This document shows positions 3,488 through 20,711 of a DNA stretch of 24,667 nucleotides, piece after piece. The stretch is from a virus. How positions within the stretch are numbered: position 1 is the stretch's first letter; the number at the start of each line of letters is the position of its first letter. The notes below the pieces were generated by a model. It was given only the letters and a program-made list of their open reading frames with translations, did no database searches and was not told the DNA's origin. Location of the stretch: IMG/VR virus record IMGVR_UViG_3300046736_000097, positions 1 to 24,667 of that record. One strand, 5' to 3'. The position numbers and the translations under genes are program-made.

Positions 3488-5175
3488 ATGACCGGATCCA
3501 GAAGCGATCCAGTGAGGAGGTCCCCCATCTCACGTTGCTGTACCTGGGCGACGTGGAGCTCTCCGCCGAAGCTGTCCTCTACGTGCAGCACGCGGCAAAA
3601 GAGCTCAGTCCTTTCATGCTTACCGTGGATTACCGCGGGACTCTTGGCGAGGACGAAGCTGATGTGCTCTTCTTCGAGAAGACGGCGTGGGACCTGGACC
3701 GCATTGCGAGCTTCAGGCACCACCTCCTGCTCAACGACGAGATCAAGGCGGCCTACGACGCAGCTCCACAGCACACGGAGCATCCTGACTGGACGCCGCA
3801 CCTCACACTGGGCTACCCGGCGACCCCGGCCCCAGAAGATGACGAAGACCGGAGTCTTTCGTACGTCAACTTCGACCGGATCGCTGTTTGGACCGGTGAC
3901 TTCGAGGGCCCAGAGTTCCGCCTGAAATACGACAACAACGGAATGGACGAGGTGATGGCCATGAGCGATATTTCAACTACAGAGCGAGGCGCACAGGCCG
4001 CCGCCGAGCTGTTCCACTACGGCACGAAGGGCATGAAGTGGGGTGTCCGCAAGGCTGAGCGGCACCGCGAGGTCGCGGCTCGTAGCCGTCGCATTGCCGA
4101 TGGCACCGCATCGAAGCAGGACAAGCGCGATCAGTTCGTCGGCAAGGGGCTGGACGGAGCTGGCGGCAAGCTGGCAACCAGCAAGTATGGCGCGACCAAG
4201 ATCGCCGAGCGACACGAGAAGAAGGCAGCCAAGCTCGAAGCCAAGGTGGACAAGAAGGCCGAGAAGATGGACAAGAAGTGGGAGAAGTCGATCTACACCA
4301 CTTCGAAGGCTGTGGAGGTCCACAACGCCATGGCCGAGCACTTCAACGAGCGGATCGGTGCGGTCAACGACAAGCATCCTCTCGCCAACATATTTGACTC
4401 GCCCAACTCGCCGGAGTCGGTAGCCTACATGACCGAGGTCGAGAGGTTGACCTCACGATCGTATGCCTACGCGACGACGACCGTCCACGGGACGAGCCCT
4501 TCGGGGCTGAAGCGTGCCAAGTACGTTGACGACGACAAGGGCCCTCGCATTGTCGTCACCAAGACCGACGTCCAGCACGCCGAAGAGGACGATCCGGATC
4601 TGATCTTGCTGGTGAAGCCGGACGAGAGCGGCCATATTCTCGAGCTGAACGAAGCCGAGGTGGAATCGGTCGAGCATTCCGGTGAGGCCGGCGCGTTCCT
4701 CGCACACTACGGCAAGAAGGGCATGAAGTGGGGAGTCACCACCACTGACCGCGCATCGCAGCGGACTCCGACTCCGGTCACCACGGCGCAGAAGAAGCCC
4801 GGCACCTACACCAAGGCCAAGGGCGGGAAGAATCTCCCCGCGCACGAGGACGCTATCAACGCCCTCGTCACCCGGCAGAAGGCCAAGTCCAGCACCACTG
4901 ACGCGCTGTCGAACGTGGAACTGCGCAAGGCCATTGAGAGAATGAACCTGGAGAACCAGTACCACAACGCTTCCTTCAACTCCGATCGCCGGAGCAAGGG
5001 GCAGAGGTTCGTGCAGGGTCTCATCGGCAGAAAGCGCTACGGTCAGAAGCGCAAGTACACCGACTTCAACGAGGAGCTCGGCTCAGCCACCAGGACTGCG
5101 GCCGGCTCGAAGGTGGCCAAGACGGCTGCGGACAAGGCAACAAAGGCGGCCATCAAGAAGGTCGCTGGCATCTAG
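3448..5175 (+). CDS. 2H phosphoesterase domain fused to a double KGMKWGV-motif phage protein
   Basis: The 575-residue protein has two parts. Residues 1-160 look like a 2H phosphoesterase: PHLTLLYLG (HxT at 27-29) and PHLTLGYP (HxT at 118-120). This family cleaves or makes 2',3'-cyclic or cyclic nucleotide bonds in RNA or nucleotides. Residues 171-575 carry HYGTKGMKWGVR at 190-201, a Lys/Ala/Glu-rich coiled-coil (about 205-290), a mixed domain (about 290-415), HYGKKGMKWGV at 420-430, and a C-terminal LSNVELRKAIERM segment with a basic tail. The motif is typical of phage proteins encoded near portal and capsid genes. The second part has its own plausible start at 3961. The start used here follows GGAAAGGGAG at 3431-3440. 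The gene could be a natural fusion of an enzyme and a virion protein. Confidence 0.65.
   Translation: MDRATVIVALPPVDDRIQKRSSEEVPHLTLLYLGDVELSAEAVLYVQHAAKELSPFMLTVDYRGTLGEDEADVLFFEKTAWDLDRIASFRHHLLLNDEIKAAYDAAPQHTEHPDWTPHLTLGYPATPAPEDDEDRSLSYVNFDRIAVWTGDFEGPEFRLKYDNNGMDEVMAMSDISTTERGAQAAAELFHYGTKGMKWGVRKAERHREVAARSRRIADGTASKQDKRDQFVGKGLDGAGGKLATSKYGATKIAERHEKKAAKLEAKVDKKAEKMDKKWEKSIYTTSKAVEVHNAMAEHFNERIGAVNDKHPLANIFDSPNSPESVAYMTEVERLTSRSYAYATTTVHGTSPSGLKRAKYVDDDKGPRIVVTKTDVQHAEEDDPDLILLVKPDESGHILELNEAEVESVEHSGEAGAFLAHYGKKGMKWGVTTTDRASQRTPTPVTTAQKKPGTYTKAKGGKNLPAHEDAINALVTRQKAKSSTTDALSNVELRKAIERMNLENQYHNASFNSDRRSKGQRFVQGLIGRKRYGQKRKYTDFNEELGSATRTAAGSKVAKTAADKATKAAIKKVAGI
3949..3963 (+). promoter_or_regulatory. 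Internal Shine-Dalgarno and start codon within the 2H fusion gene
   Basis: GAGGTGAT (3949-3956) matches the core of the canonical Shine-Dalgarno sequence and is followed four bases later by an in-frame ATG (3961). Translation from there would give a 404-residue protein beginning MSDISTTE and lacking the 2H domain. The start resembles that of the related gene at 6959, which begins MSDIVVNS. Spacing is a little short but workable. Confidence 0.45.
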
Positions 5176-5192: not shown

Positions 5193-6959
5193 GTGGATGC
5201 AGCACTGATTGAATCGATTGAACGGCACATGTCTAACACCGCCGTGCCTAAGTACTACGGTCAGTACCGTGCAGCAGTAGAGCGCGGCGATATTCCGGTC
5301 TGCCGGGAGATCGAGATGGAGATGAACCGCATCGATGACCGTATCGATGACCCAGACGTCTACTATGCAGGTAATGTGGTCGATGGGTTCGTTGACTTCT
5401 GCGAAAGGGAGATGACTCTCGCTGACGGTAGCGATCTCAAACTCCTACCCATCTTCAAGGTGTGGGCAGAGCAGCTCTTGGGCTGGTGGCACTACGAGGA
5501 AGAGGACGACTACGACGAGAAGCTCGGCCGATGGGTTGTACGGACCAATCTTCGTCGCCTCATCAACAAGCAGTACCTGATCGTGGCCCGTGGTGCAGCC
5601 AAGTCGATGTATGCCTCCCTACTCCAGGCATATTTCCTCAACGTTGACACCACTACCACCCACCAGATCTGCACTGCTCCCACCATGAAGCAGGCAGACG
5701 AGGTGATGAACCCGTTCAGGACCGCCATCACGCGGTCACGCGGGCCATATTTCAAGTTCCTCACCGCTGGCTCGCTGCAGAACACCACTGGTGACCGGTG
5801 GCTGCGCCAGAAGCTGGTCGCTACCAAGAAGGGCATCGAGAACTTCCTCACAGGATCCATCCTTGAGGTCCGACCGATGTCGATCGACAAGCTTCAGGGC
5901 CTTGGTACCAAGGTGAACACGGTGGATGAGTGGCTCTCAGTCGATATTCGTGAGAACGTGATCGACGCGCTCGAGCAGGGCGCAACAAAGGTGGACGATT
6001 GGGTCGTAGTTGCCATCTCGTCCGAAGGTGTCGTTCGAAACGGCGCTGGGGACGACATCAAGATGGAGCTTCAGACCATCCTCAAGGGTGAGTACATCCG
6101 TGAGGACACCTCGATCTTCCACTACAAGCTTGACAGCGTCGAAGAGGTTGAAGATGAGCGCATGTGGCTCAAGGCCAACCCCAACCTTGGCAAGACTGTG
6201 TCCTACACCACCTACAAGCTCGACGTCGAGAAGGCCAAGAAGGTCCCGGCCACCCGCAACGATATTCTCGCAAAGCGTTTCGGGCTCCCGATGGAAGGAT
6301 TCGTCTACTTCTTCACCTATGAGGAGACGCGGCTGCACAGGGTGCGGCCAAACGCCTACAACGGCGGTCTCTGCGCGCTTGGTGTGGACCTTTCGCAGGG
6401 TGATGACTTCTGTGCGTTCACTCTCCTGTTTCCTCTCCGTAGTGGAAAGTTCGGTGTCGACACTCGTAGCTACATCACGAAGCGAACGCTCGACCTTCTG
6501 CCCGGCGCCCTTCGCAACAAGTACCAGGAGTTCCTCGATGAGGGATCATTGGTCGTCATGGAGGGCAATCTCCTGGACATGATCGAGGTCTATGAGGATC
6601 TAGACCTCTATATTCGTCACAACAAGTACGGCGTTCGCGCCGTGGGCTATGACACCTACAACGCTAAGGAGTTCATGGAGCGTTGGGTCCAGGACTACGG
6701 CGAATGGGGCGTCGTCAAGGTCATTCAGGGAGCTCGGACCGAGTCTGTGCCCCTGGGCGAGATCAAGACGCTCACCGAGGACCGTTTGCTCATATTCCAC
6801 CAGGAGCTCATGAAGTTCACGATGGGTAACGCCGTCACCCTCGAGGACACCAACGGTAACCGCAAGCTTTCGAAGAAGCGGAGAGACGAGAAGATCGACA
6901 ACGTCGCCGCTTTGATGGACGCCTACGTCGCCTACAAGGCCAACAAGGAGGAGTTCTGA
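5193..6959 (+). CDS. terL: Terminase large subunit
   Basis: The 588-residue protein is the packaging motor ATPase and nuclease that pumps DNA into the prohead through the portal. The ATPase domain has an adenine-side segment before residue 120, a degenerate Walker A (ARGAAKSM, 132-139), a coupling region, and Walker B plus catalytic Glu (VNTVDE, 241-246). The nuclease domain carries an RNase H-like set of acidic residues: Asp399 in GVDLSQGDD, Asp487 in GYDTYN, and a final Asp in KIDNVAALMDA (569 or 576). Length and domain order are normal for HK97-like phages. The GTG start follows AAGGGAGGG (5178-5186). Its stop overlaps the next start as TGATG. It is flanked on both sides by genes with KGMKWGV motifs, an uncommon setting for terL. 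Confidence 0.93.
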   Translation: MDAALIESIERHMSNTAVPKYYGQYRAAVERGDIPVCREIEMEMNRIDDRIDDPDVYYAGNVVDGFVDFCEREMTLADGSDLKLLPIFKVWAEQLLGWWHYEEEDDYDEKLGRWVVRTNLRRLINKQYLIVARGAAKSMYASLLQAYFLNVDTTTTHQICTAPTMKQADEVMNPFRTAITRSRGPYFKFLTAGSLQNTTGDRWLRQKLVATKKGIENFLTGSILEVRPMSIDKLQGLGTKVNTVDEWLSVDIRENVIDALEQGATKVDDWVVVAISSEGVVRNGAGDDIKMELQTILKGEYIREDTSIFHYKLDSVEEVEDERMWLKANPNLGKTVSYTTYKLDVEKAKKVPATRNDILAKRFGLPMEGFVYFFTYEETRLHRVRPNAYNGGLCALGVDLSQGDDFCAFTLLFPLRSGKFGVDTRSYITKRTLDLLPGALRNKYQEFLDEGSLVVMEGNLLDMIEVYEDLDLYIRHNKYGVRAVGYDTYNAKEFMERWVQDYGEWGVVKVIQGARTESVPLGEIKTLTEDRLLIFHQELMKFTMGNAVTLEDTNGNRKLSKKRRDEKIDNVAALMDAYVAYKANKEEF

Positions 6960-8296
6960 TGTCGGACATCGTTGTCAACAGTCCTCAGAAGTTCGCCTCT
7001 CCACAGGCGGCTCTGGCGCACTACGGCAAGAAGGGCATGAAGTGGGGCGTCCGCAACGAGGGCGAGTCTGGCCGCGGACGTTCTTCGGAAAACTCAGGAA
7101 CGCCCGAGGAGATGAGCACGGCAGCTCTAGAGCAAGCCTTCGATGCTTTCAACGCCAAGCACTCCACGGAATCCCTCCAGGCCGAGGGAGTGGCGAAGAT
7201 GAAGGCTCAGATCGCCAACGATCATCCGCCTAAGCAAATCTCCGATCGTCGTGTCACCAAAGCTGAAAAGTCCGAGGCTGCTGCGGAAAGATTCCAGCGG
7301 CAGGCAGATGAATACCGGGAGAAGCTCGACGCTGTTGGTGATGCGAAGGGGATTGGCGCCAGCGTCAAGCGAGGTCACTACAACGCGGCGGTTCGAGACT
7401 CTGAGATCTATCGGGACAACGCCCTGAAGAGAGCCGAGCAACTTCGCTCTGGAAAGCTGACAAGCGATCAGAAGATGCTTATCGGTCTTGGTGCTGCGGC
7501 GGTCCTAACCATCGGCGTCGGGTATGCAGCTGGTCGCTATCAGCAAAAGCAAGCCGCGAATTTTGCCCTCAATGAGCAAAAGAAGATCGGCCTCAAGAAG
7601 CGAGACATCGACTTCGAAACCGAGCGGAACAGGACTGAGCACTCATCGCAGTTCAGGTCGATATTTGGTCATGATCCTGACTTCGTTCCTGTTGCAAGCT
7701 CGGAATGGGCCGGAGGCGGATTCTTCGCCGGCTTCAGCAACAAGAAGGCCATGGATCGACCCGAGTTCACGATCCCAAAAGACACACTGTTCCAAAGGCT
7801 CTCCAACCACCCCGAAGACAGCACAGAGTATGGTGTGAACAAGCCTGTTTACTCCACATTCCTGAGCAACGACAAGAAGGTCTACGGTGCTTCCGGCGAG
7901 TTCGGCAGTAAGGGTCTGGCTATTAACTTCACGGCCAAAGGCGACACTCGTGTGCCGAACATCAACACCACGGTCGCACACTTGAAGCAGGTTCTCAAGT
8001 CGAACGCAAATGATCCTGCAAAAGCCGCCTACTGGGACAACAACGAGAATGTGCTTACCGAGTACAAGCAGTTGTCTGGCGGCAGCTGGAGCTCTCCTAC
8101 AGCTCAGAAGTTGTTCACGTCGCTAAAGTCGTTTGGCTACAGCGCGATCGTGGATGACATGGATGCCGGATATTTGGGCGACGCGCCAGTCGTCTTCTTC
8201 GGCGACGCAAACTCAGCCACTCACGTTCCCCGAGGTCCGGACGCCAAGGTCCGAGACGCTGTCGGAATGACCAAACTGTCCGGCAAGTACGCATGA
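6959..8296 (+). CDS. KGMKWGV-motif protein with a possible ADP-ribosyltransferase-like C-terminal domain
   Basis: The 445-residue protein begins MSDI and carries HYGKKGMKWGVR at residues 21-32. A charged helical region (about 50-165) follows. A hydrophobic stretch (LIGLGAAAVLTIGVGYAAG, 174-192) could cross a membrane. The C-terminal domain (about 270-445) has TLFQRLS (Arg280), PVYSTFLSND (Ser299-Thr300), LTEYKQL (Glu368) and a terminal DDMDAGYLGDAPVVFF segment. Arg, then Tyr-Ser-Thr, then Glu in that order recalls the R-S-E layout of ADP-ribosyltransferases, and similar domains occur in phage proteins and secreted toxins. The exact catalytic Glu is not clear. Its place between terL and portal suggests a head-associated protein, perhaps carried in the virion. 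Confidence 0.5.
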   Translation: MSDIVVNSPQKFASPQAALAHYGKKGMKWGVRNEGESGRGRSSENSGTPEEMSTAALEQAFDAFNAKHSTESLQAEGVAKMKAQIANDHPPKQISDRRVTKAEKSEAAAERFQRQADEYREKLDAVGDAKGIGASVKRGHYNAAVRDSEIYRDNALKRAEQLRSGKLTSDQKMLIGLGAAAVLTIGVGYAAGRYQQKQAANFALNEQKKIGLKKRDIDFETERNRTEHSSQFRSIFGHDPDFVPVASSEWAGGGFFAGFSNKKAMDRPEFTIPKDTLFQRLSNHPEDSTEYGVNKPVYSTFLSNDKKVYGASGEFGSKGLAINFTAKGDTRVPNINTTVAHLKQVLKSNANDPAKAAYWDNNENVLTEYKQLSGGSWSSPTAQKLFTSLKSFGYSAIVDDMDAGYLGDAPVVFFGDANSATHVPRGPDAKVRDAVGMTKLSGKYA

Positions 8297-9676: not shown

Positions 9677-10302
9677 TCGACGACTCCTCTCTCTTCCACG
9701 CGCGCGCGTACGACCCGGTCGCGGCCAGGGAGTACTACTTGCGGACCAGAAAGCTGAAGGGCCGCAGACGAACAACCGCCACCAAGGCTAGTCCTGGCCG
9801 GGGTGGTCGGCGTCCATCAAATGTTCCCGCCGTTCGATCTGGCGGGGCGCCCAACCGATCGAAGACCAAGAGCCGTCGAGCTCAGCTCCTGCAACAGAGG
9901 GAGAATCTCGAGGAACGGCTTCATCGCCTTCAAGAAGTGCTCCAAGAACGCGTCGAAGCGGCCAAGGGTCGCAGCGGCGTCAAGAAGAAGCACGACGAGA
10001 AGGACAAGGCGCCTGAAACCCAGAAGGACAAGGCCGATCGCAACAAGGATGAGAAGTCAAAGAAGCTGACTCCGAAGCAAAAGGCGGAGAAGGCCAAGAA
10101 AGCCAAAGAGGATTACGAGAAAGAGAATCCAACCTCTCTTTCGGAAGACATCGACATCCTCCATGAGCAGATCAAGGACATCCACGCCAAGATAGCGGCG
10201 GCCACCAAGAGGGCTCAAGAACGACGACGGAACAAAGCTGGCTCGAACAACTCAAGGTCCGGCTCCAAGAACCGAAACTCCGACGGACCGCGAGGCCGTT
10301 GA
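9673..10302 (+). CDS. Basic coiled-coil protein, possible scaffold or head-associated protein
   Basis: The 209-residue protein begins with a conserved-looking segment, YDPVAAREYYLRTRKLKGR (13-31). This is followed by a basic Gly/Pro/Arg-rich stretch, a coiled-coil (about 65-100), a long Lys/Glu/Asp-rich region (100-150), a second helix containing LSEDIDILHEQI (156-167) and a basic Ser/Asn-rich tail. Proteins like this, lying between portal and protease/capsid genes, are candidates for scaffolding or internal head proteins, although the capsid fusion downstream may supply its own scaffold. The high charge and low complexity make database matching difficult. It overlaps the portal stop by four bases. 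No enzymatic motif is visible. Confidence 0.55.
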   Translation: MIDDSSLFHARAYDPVAAREYYLRTRKLKGRRRTTATKASPGRGGRRPSNVPAVRSGGAPNRSKTKSRRAQLLQQRENLEERLHRLQEVLQERVEAAKGRSGVKKKHDEKDKAPETQKDKADRNKDEKSKKLTPKQKAEKAKKAKEDYEKENPTSLSEDIDILHEQIKDIHAKIAAATKRAQERRRNKAGSNNSRSGSKNRNSDGPRGR

Positions 10303-10328
10303 CAGACAACCGAAAGGAGACAGCCAAA

Positions 10329-12425
10329 ATGGAAGCCGATTTCTCCGGTTACGCCACAAAGGCTGACATCAAGTGCTCCGACGGCCGGACGATCACGCCG
10401 GATGCGTTCAAGCATCAGGACACGGTCGAAGTTCCGCTCGTCTGGCAGCACAATCACGACAGCCCGATGAACGTGCTGGGTCACGCGATCCTCGAGCACC
10501 GTGGTCCTGACCACGCTGACGGCGCGGGCATCTACTGCTACGGCTACTTCAACGAGACCGAAGCCGGTGTCACCACGAAGCAGCTCGTCCACAACAAGGA
10601 CGTCAAGGCGCTGTCGATCTACGCCAACGGTCTGGTCGAGAAGGCCAAGACCGTGCTGCACGGAGCCATCCGTGAGGTCAGTGTCGTGCTCTCGGGGGCC
10701 AACCCCGGCGCCTTCATCGACAACATTCGCATCGCCCACAGCGATGGCGACCTGGAAACGCTCGCCGAGGAGGCCATCATCTACACCGGCCTCGAAATCG
10801 AGCACACCGCAGGCGACGGCAGCACCGCGACTGTCGAGCACGCGGAGGACGACGGCAACACCTCTGCAACGGATGGGGGCGACGAGGAATCGTTCGCCGA
10901 CATCTACGAGGAGTTCACTCCCAAGCAGAAGGAGGTCGTCCACTTCATGGTAGGCGCTGCTCTCGAGCAGGCCGCGACCGGAGGCGACGAAGACGCCGAG
11001 ACTGGTGTCGCACACAGCGCCGACGGAACCGATGACGCCACCGAGGAGACCTCGGAGGGCGACACCGGCGACGACGACAGCAAGACCGACACCAACACCG
11101 AAGAGGGCGACCTCGCACACAAGGAAGGCGACGACAACATGTCCCGCAACCAGTTCGAGCACGGCAACGCCGGTGGCGACACGCTGACCGGTTCCGACAT
11201 CGACACCTCCAAGAGGATCTCGCACGACGACCTCTCCAAGATCGTCGAGGCGGCGAAGAAGCCCGGCGGCTCCTTCAAGGAGGGCGTCCTCGCGCACGCG
11301 GCCGAGTACGGCATCGAGAACATCGAGCTGCTGTTCCCGGACGCCAAGCTGATGGAGGCCACGCCTCAGTTCATCAGCCGGCGCATGGAGTGGGTGGCCA
11401 CGGTCATCGGCGGCACCAAGCACTCGCCGCTCGCCGCGGTGAAGACCCTGCTGGCCGACATCACCAAGGAGGAGGCCCGCGCCAAGGGCTACATCAAGGG
11501 CAACCGCAAGGAGGAGGAGGTCTTCTCCCTGCTCGGTCGCTCGGTGCGCCCCTCCACCATCTACAAGAAGCAGAAGCTCGACCGTGACGACATGCTCGAC
11601 ATCACGGACATCAACGTCGTCGCCTGGCTCAAGGCGGAGATGCGTCTGATGATCGAGGAGGAGCTCGCTCGCGCGATCCTCGTCGGCGACAACCGTCCGG
11701 CCAACCACCCGGACAAGGTCAAGGACCCGATGGGCGCCATCGACGGCGTCGGCATCCGGTCGATCCTGCACGACGACGACCTGTACGCCATCAAGACCGA
11801 GCTCGACTCCAACGTCGACTCGCGTTCGGCCGTGCGGGGCATCGTCCGGGCCATGGACGACTACCGGGGTTCCGGTGGCGCGACCATGTTCCTGGGTCGC
11901 TCGTCCCTGACCGACATGATGCTGGAGGAGGACCGGTTCGGCCGGCCCCTGTACGCCAACCGCGGCGAGCTCGCGGACAAGGTCGGCGTGTCCAACATCG
12001 TCACGGTGGACCTCTTCTCGGAGTACACCAACCTGTTCGCGATCATCGTCTCGCTCTCCGACTACACCATCGGCTCCAACCGTGGTGGGGAGCTGACCTC
12101 GTTCGAGGACTTCGACATCGATTTCAACCAGTACAAGTACCTGCAGGAGACCCGCCTGTCGGGTGGTCTGACGAAGCCGTTCTCGGCGATCGTCGTGACC
12201 CGCGCTGCCGGCACCGAGGTGCCCGCTGGTGCCACCGCGCCGTCCTTCGATGGCGCGACTGACACCGTGACGATCCCGACCAAGACCGGAGTCGTCTACA
12301 CCATCGACGGCGAAGAGGTCACCGGTGACGTCGTGATCAGCGAGCCCACTGAGGTTCGCGCCGAGGCCGCTCCGGGCTACTACCTGCCGACCGGCACCAC
12401 CCGGTCCTGGTACTTCCAGGTCTGA
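10329..12425 (+). CDS. Prohead maturation protease fused to major capsid protein
   Basis: The 698-residue protein joins two head genes normally separate. Residues 1-140 are an HK97-type prohead protease: a His motif WQHNHD (39-44) and IREVSVVLSGANPG (114-127) with Ser118 as probable nucleophile. Residues 140-270 are an acidic low-complexity linker that may act as scaffold. From about 271 (MSRNQFEHG) the HK97-fold capsid protein follows, ending with a small beta-rich extension (about 630-698, containing TIPTKTGVVYTIDGEEV). During maturation the protease would cut itself free and trim the capsid subunit. Start ATG 10329 is preceded by AAAGGAGA (10313-10320); a TTG at 10299 is less likely. Codon use is very G/C-rich at third positions, typical of a highly expressed gene. 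An internal start exists at 11139. Confidence 0.85.
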   Translation: MEADFSGYATKADIKCSDGRTITPDAFKHQDTVEVPLVWQHNHDSPMNVLGHAILEHRGPDHADGAGIYCYGYFNETEAGVTTKQLVHNKDVKALSIYANGLVEKAKTVLHGAIREVSVVLSGANPGAFIDNIRIAHSDGDLETLAEEAIIYTGLEIEHTAGDGSTATVEHAEDDGNTSATDGGDEESFADIYEEFTPKQKEVVHFMVGAALEQAATGGDEDAETGVAHSADGTDDATEETSEGDTGDDDSKTDTNTEEGDLAHKEGDDNMSRNQFEHGNAGGDTLTGSDIDTSKRISHDDLSKIVEAAKKPGGSFKEGVLAHAAEYGIENIELLFPDAKLMEATPQFISRRMEWVATVIGGTKHSPLAAVKTLLADITKEEARAKGYIKGNRKEEEVFSLLGRSVRPSTIYKKQKLDRDDMLDITDINVVAWLKAEMRLMIEEELARAILVGDNRPANHPDKVKDPMGAIDGVGIRSILHDDDLYAIKTELDSNVDSRSAVRGIVRAMDDYRGSGGATMFLGRSSLTDMMLEEDRFGRPLYANRGELADKVGVSNIVTVDLFSEYTNLFAIIVSLSDYTIGSNRGGELTSFEDFDIDFNQYKYLQETRLSGGLTKPFSAIVVTRAAGTEVPAGATAPSFDGATDTVTIPTKTGVVYTIDGEEVTGDVVISEPTEVRAEAAPGYYLPTGTTRSWYFQV
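11121..11141 (+). promoter_or_regulatory. Internal ribosome binding site and ATG inside the protease-capsid fusion
   Basis: AAGGAAGG (11121-11128) stands 10 bases before an in-frame ATG (11139-11141) that begins MSRNQFEHG, at the end of the acidic linker. Translation from here would give a free 428-residue capsid protein without the protease. That offers a way to make many capsid subunits per protease. It is a prediction from sequence only; the fusion could instead be split by proteolysis. Confidence 0.4.
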
Positions 12426-12436
12426 GGTAGTCGCTG

Positions 12437-12820
12437 ATGGCGAGGTTTTCGGGTCTCGTCGGGTTTGCTCACACAGTGAGGACGGCCCCGGGCGTGAGCT
12501 CGGAGGTCATCACGGAGAAAGGTCCATATTTCGGCGACGTCAAGCGCAAAGCACGATCCATGCGCAACGAAACGTCGGTCAATGCGGAAGTTTCTCTGAC
12601 GAACACGATCGAGATCATGGCAGACGACTATGCCAGCGAGAACATCTTCGCCATTCGGTTTGTCGAGTGGGCGGGGGCGTGTTGGACCGTGGCGGAAGCT
12701 ACAGTCGACCGTCCCCGCCTTCTCTTGAGGTTGGGAGGTGTATATCGTGGTGCTCGCGCCAAGCAAGCCGAAACGGCTGAAGTTTCAGACGCTCCTCCAG
12801 GAGACGTCGGGTCTTCCTGA
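12437..12820 (+). CDS. Head-tail connector (stopper/head closure) protein
   Basis: The 127-residue protein matches a connector family found after the capsid gene in many actinobacterial and firmicute phages: N-terminal RFSGLVGFAHTVRTAPGV, a central ITEKGPYFGDVKRKARSM, then SLTNTIEIMADDYASENIFAIRFVEWAG and a LLLRLGGVY end. It should sit below the portal and close the head until the tail attaches. The ribosome binding site is weak (GAGGTAG near 12425). The last 74 bases overlap the next gene in another frame, and the C-terminal tail after LRLGGVY looks like an extension created by that overlap. Family homologues appear to end near that point, by recollection. Confidence 0.65.
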   Translation: MARFSGLVGFAHTVRTAPGVSSEVITEKGPYFGDVKRKARSMRNETSVNAEVSLTNTIEIMADDYASENIFAIRFVEWAGACWTVAEATVDRPRLLLRLGGVYRGARAKQAETAEVSDAPPGDVGSS

Positions 12821-13076
12821 GCCTGATGTGCACTATCAGCCCCCCACAGGGACAGAGATGACCTTTCCGGCCATCGTATACACCCTGGACCGAGAGGCGA
12901 CGCAGTTCGCTGACAATCTTCCGTATCGCAGCGCCAGTGTTTACACGGTAACTGTGATTCACCCGGATCCGGACAACGATATTCGGGACAAAGTGGCTGC
13001 GCTACCGTACTGCTCCCTTGACAGGCGCTTTGCGGTCGATGGCCTGAACCATGACGTGTACACACTTTACTTCTGA
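12747..13076 (+). CDS. Tail terminator or head-tail joining protein
   Basis: The 109-residue protein fits a widespread small phage family with the layout DVHYQPPTGTEMTFPAIVY, then SASVYTVTVIHPDPDNDIRDK and a final DGLNHDVYTLYF. Proteins of this kind, encoded between the stopper and the tail tube gene, cap the tail tube and join it to the head. GTG 12747 is chosen because GGGAGG (12733-12738) lies eight bases before it; GTG 12738 overlaps that site and GTG 12750 is also possible. The gene overlaps the preceding connector by 74 bases, which is long for this compact genome. Its exact function (terminator versus second connector) cannot be settled from sequence. Confidence 0.6.
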   Translation: MVLAPSKPKRLKFQTLLQETSGLPEPDVHYQPPTGTEMTFPAIVYTLDREATQFADNLPYRSASVYTVTVIHPDPDNDIRDKVAALPYCSLDRRFAVDGLNHDVYTLYF

Positions 13077-13090
13077 GGAAAGGAATACCC

Positions 13091-13810
13091 ATGACCGTCG
13101 CAACTGGCGAGATCGTGTGGGACGAGGCCGGTGACCGCGAGTTCGAGACCGGCGTCGACCATGGCGTGCTGTACGAGCCGGACAACTCCGGTGCGTTCGT
13201 GTCGGGTGTGGCCTGGAACGGTCTGACGACCGTCACCGAGTCGCCCTCCGGCGCGGAGTCCAACCCGCAGTACGCGGACAACATGAAGTACCTCAACCTG
13301 AAGTCGGCCGAGGAGTTCGGCGCGACGGTGGAGGCCTTCACCTACCCCGACGAGTTCGGGAAGTACAACGGTGAGGCCCAGCCCGAGCCCGGCGTCTACA
13401 TCGGTCAGCAGCGGCGTGGCACCTTCGGCCTGTCCTACCGGACGCTGAAGGGCAACGACCTGCTCGGCACGGAGTTCGGCTACAAGCTCCACCTCGTGTG
13501 GAACTGTGACGCCGCCCCGTCGGAGCGGGCGTACGCCACGGTCAACGACAGCCCGGAGGCCATCACCTTCAGCTGGGAGCTGACCACCACCAAGGTCGCG
13601 GTCGGAACGGTCAACGGCGTCAAGTACGCTCCGGCCGCCTCCATGACCATCGACAGCACCAAGGTCGACGCGGACGCGCTGGCCGAGCTCGAGGCGATCC
13701 TGTACGGATCCGACGGTGACCCCGCAGCCACTCCGGCTGTGGAGCCCACCGCGGCCCGCCTGCCCACGCCGGCCGAGGTCATCGCGATCTTCGCCGACGC
13801 GGTCGCCTGA
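13091..13810 (+). CDS. Major tail (tube) protein, copy 1
   Basis: The 239-residue protein is the probable main tail tube subunit. Diagnostic segments are GVAWNGLTTVTESPSG, YADNMKYLNLKSAEEFGATVEAFTYP, RGTFGLSYRTLKGND and EFGYKLHLVWN, ending with a linker and a LPTPAEVIAIF helix. Hexameric rings of this protein would stack to form the tail tube. Of three paralogues in the window (also at 14399 and 15784) this one lies next to the connectors and has the most G/C-biased codons, like the capsid gene, so it is the best candidate for the abundant tube protein. AAAGGA before ATG 13091 serves as ribosome binding site. Confidence 0.8.
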   Translation: MTVATGEIVWDEAGDREFETGVDHGVLYEPDNSGAFVSGVAWNGLTTVTESPSGAESNPQYADNMKYLNLKSAEEFGATVEAFTYPDEFGKYNGEAQPEPGVYIGQQRRGTFGLSYRTLKGNDLLGTEFGYKLHLVWNCDAAPSERAYATVNDSPEAITFSWELTTTKVAVGTVNGVKYAPAASMTIDSTKVDADALAELEAILYGSDGDPAATPAVEPTAARLPTPAEVIAIFADAVA

Positions 13811-13839
13811 TCGACATCTGACAGTTAGGAGGCCGGAGA

Positions 13840-14385
13840 GTGCTCACCATTCACATTCAAGGCGATGAGCTTTGGGACGACGAAGCGGAGATATTTCGCT
13901 ACACAGAATGCACCGTCCTTGAGTTCGAGCACTCTCTGGCCTCCCTGTCGAAGTGGGAGGCAAAGTACCACAAGCTGTTCCTTGTTCCGGAGAAGCACAC
14001 CGAAGAGGAGATGTTTGGCTACGTCCTGGCCATGCTTGTGACGCCGAACGTCGATCCGGAAGTGCTCTACCGTTTGACCGAGGAGCAAGTCGCCGCCATC
14101 AACGACTACATCAACGATCCGATGACGGCTACGACCATATCTGAGCTTCCTCAGCGTCGTGGACAGACGAGCGAGCGTCTCAGCTCTGAGTTGATCTACT
14201 TCTGGATGAACAGCTACGGGATTCCTTACGAGGCCCGACACTGGCACCTGAATCAGCTCTTCACGCTCATCAAGATCCACTACGCCAAGCAGCAGAAGCC
14301 CCAGAAGATCAACAAGCAGACCCGAATCCAGCAGATGGCTGAACTCAACGCCCAGCGCAAGGCGAAGTTGGGCACAAAGGGATAG
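13840..14385 (+). CDS. Tail assembly chaperone
   Basis: The 181-residue protein fits a tail assembly chaperone family: LEFEHSLASLSKWEAKYHK (residues 27-45), then a region with NVDPEVLYRLTEEQVAAINDYINDPMTATT, then IYFWMNSYGIPYEARHWHLNQLFTLIKI and a basic tail (MAELNAQRKAKLGTKG). It should bind the tape measure protein and guide tube polymerisation around it. GTG 13840 follows AGGAGG (13827-13832). Many phages extend this gene by a programmed frameshift, but no overlapping downstream frame was seen here; the next gene is a tube paralogue. The tape measure gene lies about 6.7 kb downstream, an unusual separation. Confidence 0.7.
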   Translation: MLTIHIQGDELWDDEAEIFRYTECTVLEFEHSLASLSKWEAKYHKLFLVPEKHTEEEMFGYVLAMLVTPNVDPEVLYRLTEEQVAAINDYINDPMTATTISELPQRRGQTSERLSSELIYFWMNSYGIPYEARHWHLNQLFTLIKIHYAKQQKPQKINKQTRIQQMAELNAQRKAKLGTKG

Positions 14386-14398
14386 GAAGGAGGATCCA

Positions 14399-15067
14399 GT
14401 GTCGCGAGTCGAATGGAACAAGGCGGGAGAACGGTTCTTCGAGACAGGTATCGACCAAGTGGTCCTCTATCCTCCTCTCGGGGCGGGCGTTCCATGGAAT
14501 GGCGTCGTTGCTGTCAACGAAAGCGCCTCGACGAGCGAGTTGGAGCCTCTATATTTCGACGGTGTCAAGTACCTCGACATCGCATCTGCCGAGAACTTCC
14601 AGCTGCAACTCGATGCTTTCTCTGCGCCGGCCGAATTTGGGCCCTGTGACGGCCAGAAACAGCTCTCTCCGGGCCTATTCGTCACTCAGCAGCCCCGGAA
14701 GACCTTCGGACTGGCCTATCGCACTCTGAAGGGCAATGACCTGGTCAGTACCGAGTTCGGGTACAAGCTGCATCTGGTGTGGAATTGCACGGCCGCGCCA
14801 GCGGGCAAGAACAACCAGACCATCAGCGACAACGTCACTCCGGACGTCCGTTCCTGGCAGATCGGCACGGTTCCGCCACCGGCAACCACCTTCAAGCCCA
14901 CAGCCCACGTCGTTTTGGACTCAGAACTGATTGAGCCATACGCCTTGGCGCAGGTCGAAGCTCTTCTCTACGGTCACGACAACGGTCAGGCATATTTGCC
15001 GACTGTGGCCGAGATCGTCGCCACACTTGACACTCGCATCGGCGAGCTGATCACCGAATTCATCTAG
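14399..15067 (+). CDS. Major tail protein paralogue, copy 2
   Basis: The 222-residue protein is clearly related to the copy at 13091: shared VPWNGVVAVNES, YFDGVKYLDIASAENFQLQLDAFS, KTFGLAYRTLKGND and the identical EFGYKLHLVWNC. It lacks the long alanine-rich linker of copy 1 and ends with LPTVAEIVATLDTRIGELITEFI. Codon choice is less G/C-biased than in copy 1, and it carries two ATATTY hexamers, so it is probably made in smaller amounts. It may form the distal end of the tube, an adaptor to the baseplate, or decorations. The GTG start follows GGAAGGAGGA (14385-14394). Confidence 0.7.
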   Translation: MSRVEWNKAGERFFETGIDQVVLYPPLGAGVPWNGVVAVNESASTSELEPLYFDGVKYLDIASAENFQLQLDAFSAPAEFGPCDGQKQLSPGLFVTQQPRKTFGLAYRTLKGNDLVSTEFGYKLHLVWNCTAAPAGKNNQTISDNVTPDVRSWQIGTVPPPATTFKPTAHVVLDSELIEPYALAQVEALLYGHDNGQAYLPTVAEIVATLDTRIGELITEFI

Positions 15068-15076
15068 GAGGCAGCA

Positions 15077-15772
15077 ATGGTTCTTCCGAACCCTCTCGAA
15101 CAGGTCTTCGTCAACGACCCGCTTCCCGCTGCCCTCAACGAGGAGCGGGACGCCATCAACACGCTCGACGGAGCCGTCGACGACCGCATTCCGTTCCCAT
15201 CTGGCGCCCAGACGGGCGATCTGCTCAAGTGGGATGGCTCGAAATGGGCCACAACCGAGACTCGATTCCTCGAGGACGACGGTCGCCCTGACGGCAGGGT
15301 CGCTGGACCCATCGGAACGCGCTACATCGACAGGCTCGGTACCACAGGCGCCGTCGAGTGGGTCAAGCGAGCTGGCACCGCCGACAGCAACACCGGCTGG
15401 ATCTGTCTCGCAGGCGAGACGGGCCCTCGCGATATTTCCGGAGACATCGTCAAGCGCAGCACAGCCACTGTCTACTCTGCGATCATCTTGCGCTCGGGTC
15501 AGGTCGTCACGTTCTACGTCGACATGGCGATGCCGAACAACGTCGCTTCGCCGTACACGATCTACACCCTGCCCGTTGGCTTCCGGCCGACGCATGACAT
15601 CTACGGCGGCATCACGGACAACAAGGAAGGCGCCGATCTCGGTGGAACGCTCGTGGACAACAACGGCGCGATCAACATCTACACCCCCAAGGCCGGCGTC
15701 CGGGACCGTTACCACGGTACCTGGATCACTGCCGATGCTTGGCCGTCGAGTTACCCCGGACCTGCCGCTTGA
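15077..15772 (+). CDS. Minor tail or fibre protein with C-terminal tip-like domain
   Basis: The 231-residue protein has an N-terminal segment with LPAALNEERDAINTLDGAVD, a GDLLKWDGSKWATTE repeat-like strand typical of phage fibres, and TRYIDRLGTTGAVEWVKRAGT. A C-terminal beta-rich domain (about 125-231) includes SGQVVTFYVDMAM, LPVGFRPTHDIYGG and a final GTWITADAWPSSYPG. The C-terminal pattern resembles receptor-binding tips; a related pattern (GFKPAADVVG) ends the large protein at 18498. It is probably a virion fibre component or a spike accessory. It lies between two tail tube paralogues, with AGGAGGCA before ATG 15077. Confidence 0.6.
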   Translation: MVLPNPLEQVFVNDPLPAALNEERDAINTLDGAVDDRIPFPSGAQTGDLLKWDGSKWATTETRFLEDDGRPDGRVAGPIGTRYIDRLGTTGAVEWVKRAGTADSNTGWICLAGETGPRDISGDIVKRSTATVYSAIILRSGQVVTFYVDMAMPNNVASPYTIYTLPVGFRPTHDIYGGITDNKEGADLGGTLVDNNGAINIYTPKAGVRDRYHGTWITADAWPSSYPGPAA

Positions 15773-15783
15773 TCGGAGGAACG

Positions 15784-16521
15784 ATGACAAGACTGGAGTG
15801 GGGCAAGGGTCCCCGTCAGTACGACCGCGGCGTTGACCAAGGTGTCCTATATTTGGACGACACCGGGGTTCCATGGAACGGTCTTGTCGCAGTCAATGAG
15901 CTGGATTCGGGTGCGATCGACACCGAGCACTACTTTGAGGGCAACCGCATCCATATTTCGCAAGAAAGCGGCGACTTCAAGGCTGTGATCGAGGCGTTCA
16001 CCTACCCGGACGTCTTTGCGGAGTACAACGGATTCGGAGAACGGGAGGAGTACCGCCGTTTCGGCTTCTCCTACCGCACGTGGTATGGCGACACCTACAA
16101 GATCCACCTCGTGTACAACGTTCTCGTGCAAGACGACGCTCGTTCGTGGTCGACAGTGACCGCGCAGCTGGATCCGTCGCTGTTCAACTGGAAGATCTTC
16201 GCCGCTGCCGAGCCAGTCCCGGGTGCAAGCCCCGCTGGCCGGCTGACGATGGAGGCGCCGAGGGATCCGTCTGTCCTCAGCTCGCTCGAGGATATTTTGT
16301 ACGGTACCGAAACCACCGACCCACGTCTTCCTGGACCCGCAGAGATCGTTGAGCTGTATGAGGCAGCAACGCTCCTGCGAATCACCAACAACGGCGACGG
16401 CACGTACACCGCCACCGGCCCGGACGACATGGTTCAAGACCTTGGTGACGGTCGTTTCGAGATCAACGCACCTACCGTCGCTCGTGTCGACGCCAATCGG
16501 TATGCCATCAGCTCGTACTAG
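15784..16521 (+). CDS. Major tail protein paralogue, copy 3, with C-terminal extension
   Basis: The 245-residue protein is a divergent third tube paralogue: GVPWNGLVAVNELDSG, EAFTYPDVFAEYNGFG, RFGFSYRTWYGDTYKIHLVYN, and the LEDILYG/PAEIVELYE end shared with copy 1. It adds a C-terminal domain of about 45 residues (ITNNGDGTYTATGPDD ... DANRYAISSY) absent from the other copies, probably a small beta domain exposed on the tail. ATG 15784 is used because GGAGGA (15775-15780) precedes it; an in-frame upstream start at 15739 lies inside the previous gene. It carries three ATATTY hexamers. Confidence 0.68.
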   Translation: MTRLEWGKGPRQYDRGVDQGVLYLDDTGVPWNGLVAVNELDSGAIDTEHYFEGNRIHISQESGDFKAVIEAFTYPDVFAEYNGFGEREEYRRFGFSYRTWYGDTYKIHLVYNVLVQDDARSWSTVTAQLDPSLFNWKIFAAAEPVPGASPAGRLTMEAPRDPSVLSSLEDILYGTETTDPRLPGPAEIVELYEAATLLRITNNGDGTYTATGPDDMVQDLGDGRFEINAPTVARVDANRYAISSY

Positions 16522-16533
16522 GAAGGAGGGCGC

Positions 16534-17082
16534 ATGGCTTCCGTAGTCACACTGTCTGAAGACAAGATCCAAGAGCTGATGGCCGGTTGGCAAGCCGTCG
16601 CCGACCGTCAAGACGCCCTCAACGCCGAGATCACAGAGCTCAAGACGCAGGTAGAAACCTACCAGGGAATGCTGATCGAGTTCACGAACCTGACGCTCCC
16701 CGAGATCGAGGCGATCGTCGCTGCAAACTCGATCGAGACCGAAGACTTGAAGGACAACGCTGTTCCTAACCTCGAGGTCGATGTCGATCAGAACACAGCC
16801 GCCATCGACAACATTCGAACCGTCGACATTCCGGGTTTGCTGGACAACGTGTTCCTGATTGGCGAGAACATGACGGAGATCGGCGTTCCGTTTCGTCAGC
16901 CCGACCCGCCACTTGACGATGACCCGGACAATCCTATCCTTCCGGGTACTCGCTGGTTCGATGAGGACGACAGCAACAAGGAACACTTCTGGAACGGAAC
17001 CGAGTGGGTGGACGCCATGACAGTCCCCGATCTTTCGCTGACTGTTCAGAAGTTCAAGACATCCACGCACCAACTCTACTAG
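16534..17082 (+). CDS. Coiled-coil minor tail or fibre protein
   Basis: The 182-residue protein starts with a heptad-like coiled-coil (about 8-50, KIQELMAGWQAVADRQDALN and following). Next comes a helical linker (NTAAIDNIRTVDIPGLLDNV), then a Pro/Asp-rich region (QPDPPLDDDPDNPILPG) and a TRWFDEDDSNKEHFWNGTEW strand typical of fibre shafts. It ends with LTVQKFKTSTHQLY. The final HxLY resembles the HMLY end of the next protein, so both may dock the same partner. The product is probably a trimeric fibre component. AAGGAGGG (16523-16530) precedes ATG 16534. Confidence 0.55.
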   Translation: MASVVTLSEDKIQELMAGWQAVADRQDALNAEITELKTQVETYQGMLIEFTNLTLPEIEAIVAANSIETEDLKDNAVPNLEVDVDQNTAAIDNIRTVDIPGLLDNVFLIGENMTEIGVPFRQPDPPLDDDPDNPILPGTRWFDEDDSNKEHFWNGTEWVDAMTVPDLSLTVQKFKTSTHQLY

Positions 17083-17091
17083 GAGGCTCAC

Positions 17092-18321
17092 GTGAGCTCA
17101 GCAGCCATTGGAAACAACGTCGTCCCCCTGCACCCCGAGGCGACGGAACCGCAGCAGCAAGTCCCGACTGACCTCAACGAGCTCCGGGCGCTCATCCAGC
17201 AGGACTTCAACGCGGCAGTGGCCGATGTCGAGCGTCGCCTCGCCCAGGCACGGGAGCTGGAGCGCTCGGCAGCCTTCGGTACGCCTCGTCAGATCCACGC
17301 CGAGGACCTGAACCTGTCGAAGTTCATGATCGACGGATACACGTTGACCGCGAACTCGCCGGCGAACGGCTCGATCGCCTGGGCCAACCTCCACCTCGTG
17401 TTCCAGGGCGTGGACTACACGATCACGGCCGCCAACACTGCCTTGAAGTACACATACTTCGTCAAGCCGGCCTCCTACACGCCGGGAACCAACCATCCGT
17501 TGGTCTCGTCCAACACCAAGCCCGTTCTTGGCCCCAACGACGCGCTCGTCTTCGTCAACAACGTGGTCGGTGGCATGAGCACACCGATCTCGGTGCTGGA
17601 AACCTCGATCCCCTACGCGATTGGCGACGGCGTCGTCAGTGACGCGGAGGTCTCGAGCCTTTCCCAGGCCAAGATCACCGGTTTGTCCGGTGCGCTCAAC
17701 ACCTTCACCACCGACATCCAGCGTGTGGAGGCCAAGGCGGACGGTGCGATCACTCAGTGGATCCAGCCGGACTTTCCTTGGGCCAACGGAACGGTCCAGG
17801 GGACGGAAAAGACCGGGGACGTCTACACAGCCCAGGGGTCGACCGATCAGGTCGCTCGCCCCGACGGTCGTTCCTGGAAGTGGTCTGGTCCCTCCGGCGC
17901 ACCGGCCAACAACTGGATCCTGATCGCCGACTCCGACGTGGCCAAGGCTTTGGCAGATTCCGCCGCGGCTAAGAACGGTCTCGCCGGCAAGAACACCTCC
18001 TACTACCGGACGATGGCCCAGGGCGCACCTCCCACCCCGACCGATGGCTTCGCAACCGGTGACGAGTGGGTGCAGACTGACAACGCCAACTACACGCAGC
18101 GCTGGACAGGCTCGGCGTGGACCGCTGTGCTCTATGGAGACGCTGCTCTGTCGGGCATCTCTGGCGGCAAGGTCGGATCTGGCATCAACGGCGACAATGT
18201 GACGACGGGAACGGTTGTTGCAGCGAGGGTTGGGGCTGGAGTTAACGGCGCCGTCCTCACAACCGCCACCGGTCAGGTCGTTCCGTCCAAGCTGAACATC
18301 CCCGTTCACATGCTCTACTGA
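17092..18321 (+). CDS. Tail fibre or baseplate protein
   Basis: The 409-residue protein has a short Pro/Gln-rich N-terminus and a coiled-coil (about 26-60). A beta-rich domain (about 88-175) follows with SPANGSIAWANLHLVFQGVDY, a pattern repeated in the N-terminus of the protein at 18498. Then come a helical segment (LNTFTTDIQRVEAK) and strands with RSWKWSGPSG and NYTQRWTGSAW. The terminal region contains GISGGKVGSGINGDNVTTGTV and the HMLY end. This modular build is typical of phage fibres or upper baseplate components. GTG 17092 follows AGGAGG (17081-17086). Its exact position in the tail cannot be read from sequence. Confidence 0.6.
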   Translation: MSSAAIGNNVVPLHPEATEPQQQVPTDLNELRALIQQDFNAAVADVERRLAQARELERSAAFGTPRQIHAEDLNLSKFMIDGYTLTANSPANGSIAWANLHLVFQGVDYTITAANTALKYTYFVKPASYTPGTNHPLVSSNTKPVLGPNDALVFVNNVVGGMSTPISVLETSIPYAIGDGVVSDAEVSSLSQAKITGLSGALNTFTTDIQRVEAKADGAITQWIQPDFPWANGTVQGTEKTGDVYTAQGSTDQVARPDGRSWKWSGPSGAPANNWILIADSDVAKALADSAAAKNGLAGKNTSYYRTMAQGAPPTPTDGFATGDEWVQTDNANYTQRWTGSAWTAVLYGDAALSGISGGKVGSGINGDNVTTGTVVAARVGAGVNGAVLTTATGQVVPSKLNIPVHMLY

Positions 18322-18497: not shown

Positions 18498-20711
18498 GTG
18501 GCGGTTCCTGCAGTCACAGACAACTCGCCTCAGCTGGGCGACATCGCTTGGGCGGCCTTCACCATCCAGTACAATGGCGTTGGGTACCAGATCGGCGCCG
18601 GTTCTACCTCTCAGCGATGGGTTTGGTGGCGCTACAGCACCAACACCATCGAAGCTGGACCCGACCTCCCGGCGGATCTGACGGATGACGACCTCGTGCT
18701 GTTCGGAAACAAGAACGGCATTGCGGTTCGGGTTCAGTCTTCGACTACCGTCGATGGCGAGCTCATCGTTGACGGCTCGATCTTGGCCAGGGCTGTCTCG
18801 GCTGAAGTCCTGGTCGCCAACGACGTCTACAGCCAGACCGGTTACTTCGGTGACATCAAGGCTGAGCAGATCAAGTCGGGATCCATCGAAGCGCAGATCG
18901 CGCTTCTCGGCATGCTTGGCATCGGCAACATCACCATCGCACCGGCGCACGGCGTCCCCGGCGACGCCGACTACGACCCGGGCGGCATTGTCATCCCGCT
19001 GAGTACTGGCGGGACGATTCAGTTTCCGGCCGACGGCACGCCTGCACTCATCGAGGCGATTCTGCGGACCAAGGACCTGGTTGTCGATGGTGGTCTGAAC
19101 CTCAACGGTTTGGCGAACTACGTCAATGGCAAGCTGATTCTTGGGTCTGGAACGCCGAACCCGGCGCAGCCGACTGGCCTCGGGTATGCCTTCTTCACCA
19201 AGACCGGTGGCAAGCTCAACGTCAACAGCTACGACAACTCCTCTCGCGGCCTCGCCAAGACGACCTCTGGACACTACGGCACCACGATTCCCTGGGGCCA
19301 GAACAAGGGTCAGTCCGGGCCGTCGGAATTCGTCATTCTCGATCCGACAACGAAGAACGTCGTTCACACGAAGACTCAAGCCGAGATGGATCTCTACGCT
19401 CGAAGCGTCACGGCGGTCGGAAACGTGTTCTACGTCCTTGGCATTCGATGGAATCCGACTGCCGGCGAGTACCAGATGCGAATCCAGGGCTACAACACCG
19501 ATGGAACCTCTGCCTCTGGCACGCATCGCTGGCTCAACGACAATGCCGGCGCTCGTCTTCCAGACTCACCAGTCGGCTGGGCCATCGCGATCGCCTCAGA
19601 AGGCGATGGCTCGCACTTGCGAGTCGCTCGAGGTCAGACCAACGGCAAGATCGTGTTCTACTCTTACACCCTGACCAGCAATGATCCCACGGATTCTGTA
19701 GCTACGCCTGACGTCGGCATCTCCTACATGTCTGGGGCCATGTACTACGGCAAGGCTGACTACGGAACGACCATCAACGACACGATGGTGGTGCTCGGCG
19801 TTGGTCTAGGTTCTGCATACCGGATGGCCGCCTTCTCGGTGGTCACTGGCGCGGAAGTTCCAGCGAACTCGTTCGGAACCGTGGCTGTGGACGGCATCAT
19901 CTACGATGGCACGAAGTTCATCACCCTTGACTGGGACACGACGGGCGCCTGGCTGTCAAACCTCAACACGCTCAAGACCGACACCACGGTGTACGCGCAG
20001 CACGACTGGACGAACGCCGCGGGAACCAAGCGGTCGAAGCCGAGCGCGGTCGCGAGTCGGTTGATTCCGAAGCGCACGTGGCCCATGATCACCATACCGG
20101 CGCCTCCGAAGACTGGCAACGCGCCTGACATCGCCGACCGTGTGAACGTATATTTGGACACCGACAGCGTGACCAAGCTTCTCACGACCGAAACCTCAGG
20201 CGTCACGAAAACCATCATCGCCGCAGCAATGTCTGGTACAGGAATCGCGCCCAAGCTGGCGACAGATGTCACTGACTTCGCCAACGCCGATGCCACCGGC
20301 GCGCTGGAGTCAGTCCTTGGCAACATTTCGCTCAAGGGCGATGGTGCCTGGAAGTTGGGCGAGCTGATCGGTCTGAACGACGGTTCTTTCTCGACTACGA
20401 AGGTCGCTTCGTCAGTAGTGACCACTGCGCCATACACGGGCCGGATCGATTTCGTTCGACTTGGGCAGATGGTGTTCGCGTTCGGATATTTGGACCGGGC
20501 ATCTGGGTTCAACGCGAGCAACCACGACACAACCGCTCGCATTCCAAACGGATTCAAGCCTGCGGCAGATGTGGTAGGAAACTACTACCCGAACTCCGGA
20601 AACACCGGGACTTACCGATACCGGTTCAACGCTGATGGCATCGTTCAGCTTCAGCAGACCGTCGCGATTGCCACGTTCCAGTCGTTCAGCACCATGTGGC
20701 TCGCTGCCTAA
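18498..20711 (+). CDS. Large tail fibre or receptor-binding protein
   Basis: The 737-residue protein has an N-terminal beta module (SPQLGDIAWAAFTIQYNGVGY, about 10-30) shared with the protein at 17092. This is followed by VDGELIVDGSILARAVSAE and a shaft-like region with GYFGDIKAEQIKSGSIEAQI. A long middle (about 225-520) with repeated strand patterns such as GNVFYVLGIRWNP could be a propeller. A segment with TIPAPPKTGNAPDIADRVNVYLD comes next. The C-terminal tip-like domain (about 640-737) contains RLGQMVFAFGYLDRASG and IPNGFKPAADVVG. It is the largest candidate for host recognition in the window. GTG 18498 follows GAGGAGGAG at 18483-18491. Confidence 0.65.
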   Translation: MAVPAVTDNSPQLGDIAWAAFTIQYNGVGYQIGAGSTSQRWVWWRYSTNTIEAGPDLPADLTDDDLVLFGNKNGIAVRVQSSTTVDGELIVDGSILARAVSAEVLVANDVYSQTGYFGDIKAEQIKSGSIEAQIALLGMLGIGNITIAPAHGVPGDADYDPGGIVIPLSTGGTIQFPADGTPALIEAILRTKDLVVDGGLNLNGLANYVNGKLILGSGTPNPAQPTGLGYAFFTKTGGKLNVNSYDNSSRGLAKTTSGHYGTTIPWGQNKGQSGPSEFVILDPTTKNVVHTKTQAEMDLYARSVTAVGNVFYVLGIRWNPTAGEYQMRIQGYNTDGTSASGTHRWLNDNAGARLPDSPVGWAIAIASEGDGSHLRVARGQTNGKIVFYSYTLTSNDPTDSVATPDVGISYMSGAMYYGKADYGTTINDTMVVLGVGLGSAYRMAAFSVVTGAEVPANSFGTVAVDGIIYDGTKFITLDWDTTGAWLSNLNTLKTDTTVYAQHDWTNAAGTKRSKPSAVASRLIPKRTWPMITIPAPPKTGNAPDIADRVNVYLDTDSVTKLLTTETSGVTKTIIAAAMSGTGIAPKLATDVTDFANADATGALESVLGNISLKGDGAWKLGELIGLNDGSFSTTKVASSVVTTAPYTGRIDFVRLGQMVFAFGYLDRASGFNASNHDTTARIPNGFKPAADVVGNYYPNSGNTGTYRYRFNADGIVQLQQTVAIATFQSFSTMWLAA

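Follow-up and report, generated by a model that had tools for sequence, protein, structure and literature searches.

The window analysed here is the whole of a 24,667-base virus record (IMGVR_UViG_3300046736_000097) whose 3' end falls inside the tape measure gene, and it carries three related tail tube genes, copies 1, 2 and 3. From the terminator (phrog_78), the operon continues with copy 1, the chaperone-like gene, copy 2, the fibre-like gene and copy 3, and after these come minor tail genes, a tail-completion-like gene and the tape measure gene (Table 1). An earlier note, made from the letters of the window, had described three paralogous tube proteins with segments in common, interleaved with other tail genes instead of standing in tandem. 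Indeed, each copy is an intact, full-length open reading frame (ORF) with a Shine-Dalgarno-like sequence ahead of its start. Copy 3 begins at the ATG at 15784, and the longer version from the ORF list, with a TTG at 15739, is not the start. In a MAFFT alignment, identity to copy 1 is 47% for copy 2 and 41% for copy 3, and W-N-G, Y-R-T and much of YK[LI]HLV[WY]N are invariant across the three. All match the 'major tail protein' profile phrog_2645 over the tube domain (copy 1 1.1e-97, copy 2 2.9e-77, copy 3 2.5e-54), well outside what chance would give, and a Pfam search gave no match for any of them. The interleaving is equally real, with the chaperone-like gene between copies 1 and 2 and the fibre-like gene between copies 2 and 3.

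Table 1. Tail tube genes of the window and the features discussed with them (aa, amino acids)
Feature	Position	Strand	Remarks
Copy 1, main tail tube protein (very probable)	13091..13810	+	239 aa; no C-terminal domain; phrog_2645; capsid-like codons; groups with single-copy tube genes
Tail-assembly-chaperone-like gene	13840..14385	+	181 aa; phrog_4338, a family that carries no function
Copy 2, minor tube-fold paralogue, proposed fibre anchor	14399..15067	+	222 aa; phrog_2645; copy-2 lineage
Fibre-like gene between copies 2 and 3	15077..15772	+	231 aa; matches to minor tail families phrog_6614 and phrog_3639
Copy 3, minor tube-fold paralogue, proposed fibre anchor	15784..16521	+	245 aa; phrog_2645; modelled tube fold; copy-3 lineage
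C-terminal domain of copy 3	16375..16518	+	about residues 198-245; strands in the model
Gene after copy 3, probable coiled coil	16534..17082	+	182 aa; in relatives this place is usually that of a fibre gene with the docking motif
Probable minor tail or fibre gene	17092..18321	+	409 aa; called from position and a weak PHROG match
Probable minor tail or fibre gene	18498..20711	+	737 aa; called from position; no PHROG match
Protease-capsid fusion, codon-usage reference	10299..12425	+	phrog_3270 (4e-210)

Is the presence of several tube genes a common arrangement? A tblastn search returned 480 places in 243 phage records, on average two per record, mostly in phages of Arthrobacter, Gordonia and Streptomyces. 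Three copies are found in the Microbacterium phages Count, Camille and DizzyRudy and in Arthrobacter phage Shiba, and the tblastn listing has three tube-gene places each for Stayer and Egad; Lactococcus phage CHPC971, Faecalibacterium phage oengus and many Bacillota contigs have a single copy. We collected 335 loci including the window, which reduced to 275 distinct contigs, many of them partial. Three tube-gene matches occur in 49 of these, two in 124, one in 101 and four in a single contig (L199); since the contigs came from queries made with these same copies, the shares are not prevalence. In two contigs with three matches (L209 and L249), the second copy is a 98 aa fragment lying between the first and the last. 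In 47 of the 49 three-copy contigs and 105 of the 124 two-copy contigs, copies 1 and 2 are separated by a homologue of the chaperone-like gene.

The model of copy 3 adopts the fold of a tail tube subunit (predicted local distance difference test, pLDDT, 79.8). It is closest to the tube proteins of JBD30, YSD1 and SPR (Z 9.8-10.2 over about 140 residues), and the PDB matches listed for it are almost throughout tail-tube, Hcp and contractile-injection tube entries. By homology, copies 1 and 2 would have the same fold. A sequence search for a solved relative gave TbpB as its sole match below E 1 (E 0.068), which is not credible. In the model, the last 48 residues of copy 3 form a small strand-rich unit; this extra C-terminal domain, which had been remarked on before for the window, turned out to be general, as an extension is present on 46/46 third copies. 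A C-terminal domain of a different kind is carried by copy 1 in 35/49 three-copy contigs, not including the window. The C-terminal ~65 residues of the capsid fusion in the window match this copy-1 domain of relatives, which suggests that head and tail are decorated with the same small domain; among first or single copies with an extension, 116/156 match the capsid-type domain. In contigs L005 and L017 it is apparently present twice in copy 1.

The three copies belong to old, separate lineages. In a tree of 115 rows calculated with IQ-TREE, a single group (46 rows, support 100/96) takes in every copy-1 and every single-copy row, and this places copy 1 with the sole tube gene of Bacillota phages and prophages. 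Copies 2 and 3 make up two other sides of the tree (supports 86/87 and 91/87), and copy 2 of the window lies in the copy-2 lineage, in a 10-row set supported at 99/98. One copy 2, from contig L013, has a long branch and was placed outside the copy-2 side; an AU test on 28 rows did not reject that the copy-2 lineage arose once (p-AU 0.321). The tree rules out that copies 2 and 3 are recent local duplicates. Second copies of two-copy phages scatter over both the copy-2 and the copy-3 side, and we had first favoured a reciprocal loss of one copy on these grounds. This was later weakened by the finding of mosaic second copies (38/120), in which three quarters resemble copy 2 and the final quarter copy 3, a pattern that a pre-duplication ancestor and a later fusion fit equally.

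Decay of copies 2 and 3 in relatives, which the earlier note had named as a finding that would speak against its proposal, was not seen. The ratio of nonsynonymous to synonymous substitution rates (dN/dS) was 0.11-0.26 for both copies in ten contig pairs, where computable, three copy-3 values being saturated. These values, together with the open frames, imply that copies 2 and 3 have not decayed and point to purifying selection on both.

We found a clear difference between the copies in codon usage. In the window, the guanine-cytosine content at third codon positions (GC3) of copy 1 is 0.93, compared with 0.92 over the final 300 codons of the capsid gene, 0.70 for copy 2, 0.72 for copy 3 and 0.77 for other genes, so that the capsid-like bias noticed earlier in copy 1 is confirmed. 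We scored codon use as a log-likelihood of capsid-like versus background use in 113 of the 174 contigs with at least two copies (36 three-copy and 77 two-copy; the others had no usable capsid ORF or background). Copy 1 outscored both copy 2 and copy 3 in 36/36 three-copy contigs (Wilcoxon 2.9e-11 for either comparison) and the second copy in 75/77 two-copy contigs, and the average score of copies 2 and 3 was below the background mean of other genes. Based on these scores, copy 1 is very probably the bulk tube protein, and we infer that copies 2 and 3 are scarce. For cluster DJ phages, the available text of a recent paper (PMC12859696, 2026) infers horizontal transfer of a GC-rich tube copy from GC content and treats overlap versus divergence of the functions of the two tail proteins as an open question. 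In the cluster DJ Gordonia phage Avazak (L027), GC3 is 0.84 for the capsid part of the fusion gene, 0.82 for the first tube gene and 0.56 for the second. The first tube gene thus matches the capsid part, and a codon effect at third positions, common to the capsid, can explain the contrast otherwise ascribed to horizontal transfer.

Copy 2 can carry an appendage on the same polypeptide. In our own tally over the 50 contigs with at least three copies, a C-terminal extension of 186-615 aa is fused behind copy 2 in eight (L022, L023, L024, L057, L059, L224, L247 and L250), and in all eight at most 30 bases separate copies 2 and 3. Among the 42 unfused contigs, 16 have a gap of at least 300 bases after copy 2, two of these being the fragment cases mentioned above. 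The extensions are partly related to one another, some match minor tail families, and that of L059 matches Pfam CBM_4_9 at 2.6e-9. The second copy of the two-copy contig L161 bears an extension of 677 aa. The Microbacterium phages Camille and DizzyRudy have a fused copy 2. In the window, copy 2 has no domain of the CBM type, a small extension is found on copy 3, and the fibre-like gene behind copy 2 is 41-43% identical to genes at the same place in L190, L191 and L037. Its counterpart in L047 has in common with it only the first 37 residues (54% identity), the body being different, which looks like a conserved attachment end with a variable outer part. We also considered a frameshift fusion of the chaperone-like gene with copy 2, of the lambda G-T type, and rejected it on the frame relation of the two genes, which is spread over all three frames (58, 51 and 44 of 153 contigs); the copy-2 frame is open over at least 30 bases of the end of the chaperone-like gene in only 38 of the 153.

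Copy 3 is linked to a different kind of partner. In relatives, the gene after copy 3 often opens with a 48-residue N-terminal motif, which we refer to as the docking motif, followed by varied bodies. Within three-copy contigs, this motif stands directly after copy-3-type genes in 29/37 cases, after copy-2-type genes in 1/48 and after copy 1 in 0/48 (Fisher 2e-14 and 9e-16 for copy-3-type versus the others, kinship of contigs ignored), where copy types are profile calls and a handful of third copies came out as copy-2 type. Directly after copy-1-type single tube genes it was found in 0/80. For an independent scan, IMG/VR was searched with the motif alone and the best 80 of 152 contigs were kept, three of which had too little upstream DNA. 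A tube paralogue lies directly upstream of the motif gene in 77/77 usable contigs and bears a C-terminal extension in 76/77. The bodies behind the motif vary, with any similarity in 119/496 non-redundant pairs; similarity of the N-termini (496/496) holds by construction of the set. The motif occurs in 82 of 50,697 phage records, not all checked singly, and all 82 are from five actinobacterial host genera with multi-copy phages.

Based on these observations, we consider it probable that copy 1 builds the tube and that copies 2 and 3 are low-abundance anchors with a tube fold that fix host-binding fibres. Copy 1 would be the bulk tail-tube protein, and copies 2 and 3 would keep the tube fold and be incorporated into the tube in small numbers. 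The appendage of copy 2 would be part of the same polypeptide, as in the fusions, or the product of the next gene, as in the window, and the fibre of copy 3 would be encoded by the next gene and probably docked via the conserved N-terminal motif. Receptor binding would lie with these appendages. The working principle would resemble that of the long form of SPP1 gp17.1 and of TpeX in 936 phages, reached by gene duplication instead of frameshift. Copies 2 and 3 could be interspersed along the tube or sit at the tip or at the neck. A more far-reaching version, which we hold to be somewhat less likely than not, is a mixed tube with paralogous subunits as fibre sockets, each recognising its own docking tag, as a modular system apart from the tip baseplate; fibre exchange would then go by swapping the fused domain or the tagged gene. 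The proposal of the earlier note that diverged copies are specialised minor subunits tied to fibres gains from the copy-2 fusions, from the tube paralogue found upstream of every usable docking gene and from the old, undecayed lineages of the copies; the separate segments or distal rings that it suggested would be one possible arrangement among others. Its further idea of a pairing between each copy and the adjacent gene fails for copy 1, whose chaperone-like neighbour is found behind the sole tube gene of single-copy relatives as well (59/68 genome-contig loci).

Several points weigh against an anchor role of copies 2 and 3. That the genes are neighbours may be a matter of operon order instead of contact, and 26/50 contigs have a copy 2 with neither a fusion of at least 100 aa nor a gap of at least 300 bases behind it. 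The docking motif is absent after the copy-3-type gene in 8/37 three-copy contigs, and Streptomyces relatives carry the docking gene one gene further downstream. In the window, the gene at 16534 keeps a trace of the first residues of the motif (3.0 bits, for which we claim no significance; its equivalent in L004 reaches 12.1 bits) and continues past the N-terminus as a probable coiled coil, as judged by eye. The model of a fused copy 2 (L224) is poor (pLDDT 58), and Foldseek placed carbohydrate-binding-module folds at E ~1e-3 amid unrelated large matches; with such a model and so mixed a list, which we did not use, the case for carbohydrate binding is the Pfam match of L059. A literature search gave no virion proteomics or structure, nothing in the literature listing, as far as its entries go, was recognised as relevant virion mass spectrometry of these phages, and a search for fibres along a tail tube found nothing.

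Could copies 2 and 3 serve assembly instead? The T4 proteins gp48 and gp54, two extra proteins between tube and baseplate, have the tube fold. According to the part of the report available, they are present in six copies each at the baseplate-tube junction (PMC3004832), and copies 2 and 3 might by analogy be adaptors that form the first rings at the tip complex or the last rings at the neck, the fibre neighbours being tip proteins that share the operon by chance. The low codon optimisation of copies 2 and 3 fits few rings. However, single-copy relatives manage without them, and the fused appendages and the tight linkage of the motif with a tube paralogue are left unexplained. T4 differs in its contractile tail, for which that part of the report (PMC3004832) mentions no fused fibre. 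We regard this explanation as unlikely; adaptor and anchor roles can be compatible. Less likely still, in our view, is an interspersed position of copies 2 and 3, as decoration along the tube, comparable to the long form of SPP1 gp17.1 and the TpeX form of 936 phages but with gene duplication in place of the frameshift. In the available parts of the respective reports, the SPP1 tube mixes short and C-terminally extended gp17.1 subunits 3:1 (PMC8718954) and 936 phages put a carbohydrate-binding extension on some tube subunits (PMC6669499). In both, a fraction of the subunits bears a C-terminal domain directed at the cell wall, which the copy-2 fusions resemble. Yet codon usage suggests, indirectly, a share far below a quarter of the subunits, and divergence to 41-47% identity may disfavour free mixing. 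These systems use one gene and a programmed frameshift, whereas separate diverged genes are found here. A long form made by frameshift finds no support here: the copies have their own starts and the copy-2 frames are spread as described above, the 3' end of copy 1 not having been tested.

We hold it to be very improbable that copies 2 and 3 lack a function of their own and are no more than relics or partners in recombination. The mosaic second copies of two-copy phages would fit such a role, whereas the absence of stops, the low dN/dS, the conserved gene order and the universal C-terminal extension of copy 3 speak against it. We also rejected an identity of copies 2 and 3 with the Distal tail protein (Dit). 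The Dit gene by convention lies directly after the tape measure gene, and both copies lie before it; in relatives, the place immediately behind the tape measure gene is taken by a distinct 'minor tail protein' gene (~270 aa).

The closest published systems are actinobacteriophages with two major tail proteins (clusters AM, AU, AW, BI, CC, DJ and EL), which agree with the window in protein family, gene order, capsid-protease fusion and the chaperone-like gene between copies 1 and 2. The window differs by a third copy and by a fibre gene that stands on its own between copies 2 and 3; the available text of the published cases describes two genes, with no function named (PMC11080557, PMC10652937, PMC12859696). 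In Lactococcus phage 1706-type phages and Bacillota prophages, the tube gene groups with copy 1 and is followed by a chaperone-like gene, as here, but there is mostly one tube gene and, as counted above, no docking motif after it. Relatives with two tube genes were already in print, and three are seen in Microbacterium and Arthrobacter records. The present analysis adds the old lineage of each copy, the restriction of capsid-like codons to copy 1, the purifying selection, the copy-2 fusions and the docking-motif linkage; in the excerpts of the open-licence literature available, we found no statement of the three lineages, the fusions or the linkage. Annotators give these actinobacteriophages at least two 'major tail proteins', with the function unstated. 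If correct, a fibre-anchor role would answer the question that still stands open for these phages, place receptor binding on the tube and indicate genes that set adsorption, in phages that are already in culture.

Further features of the window lie upstream of the tube genes. A DUF7253/phrog_4270 gene (12437-12820) overlaps the ORF of the phrog_78 terminator-like gene (12738-13076), and given this overlap the true start of the terminator may be further downstream. Two genes of the head region contain three instances of the short motif HYGxKGMKWGV (Pfam DUF7211), at residues 195 and 425 of the gene at 3448-5175 and at residue 26 of that at 6959-8296. In the former, a 2'-5' RNA ligase/LigT-like domain (PF13563, 4e-9) is fused with the DUF7211 repeats, inside the structural operon.

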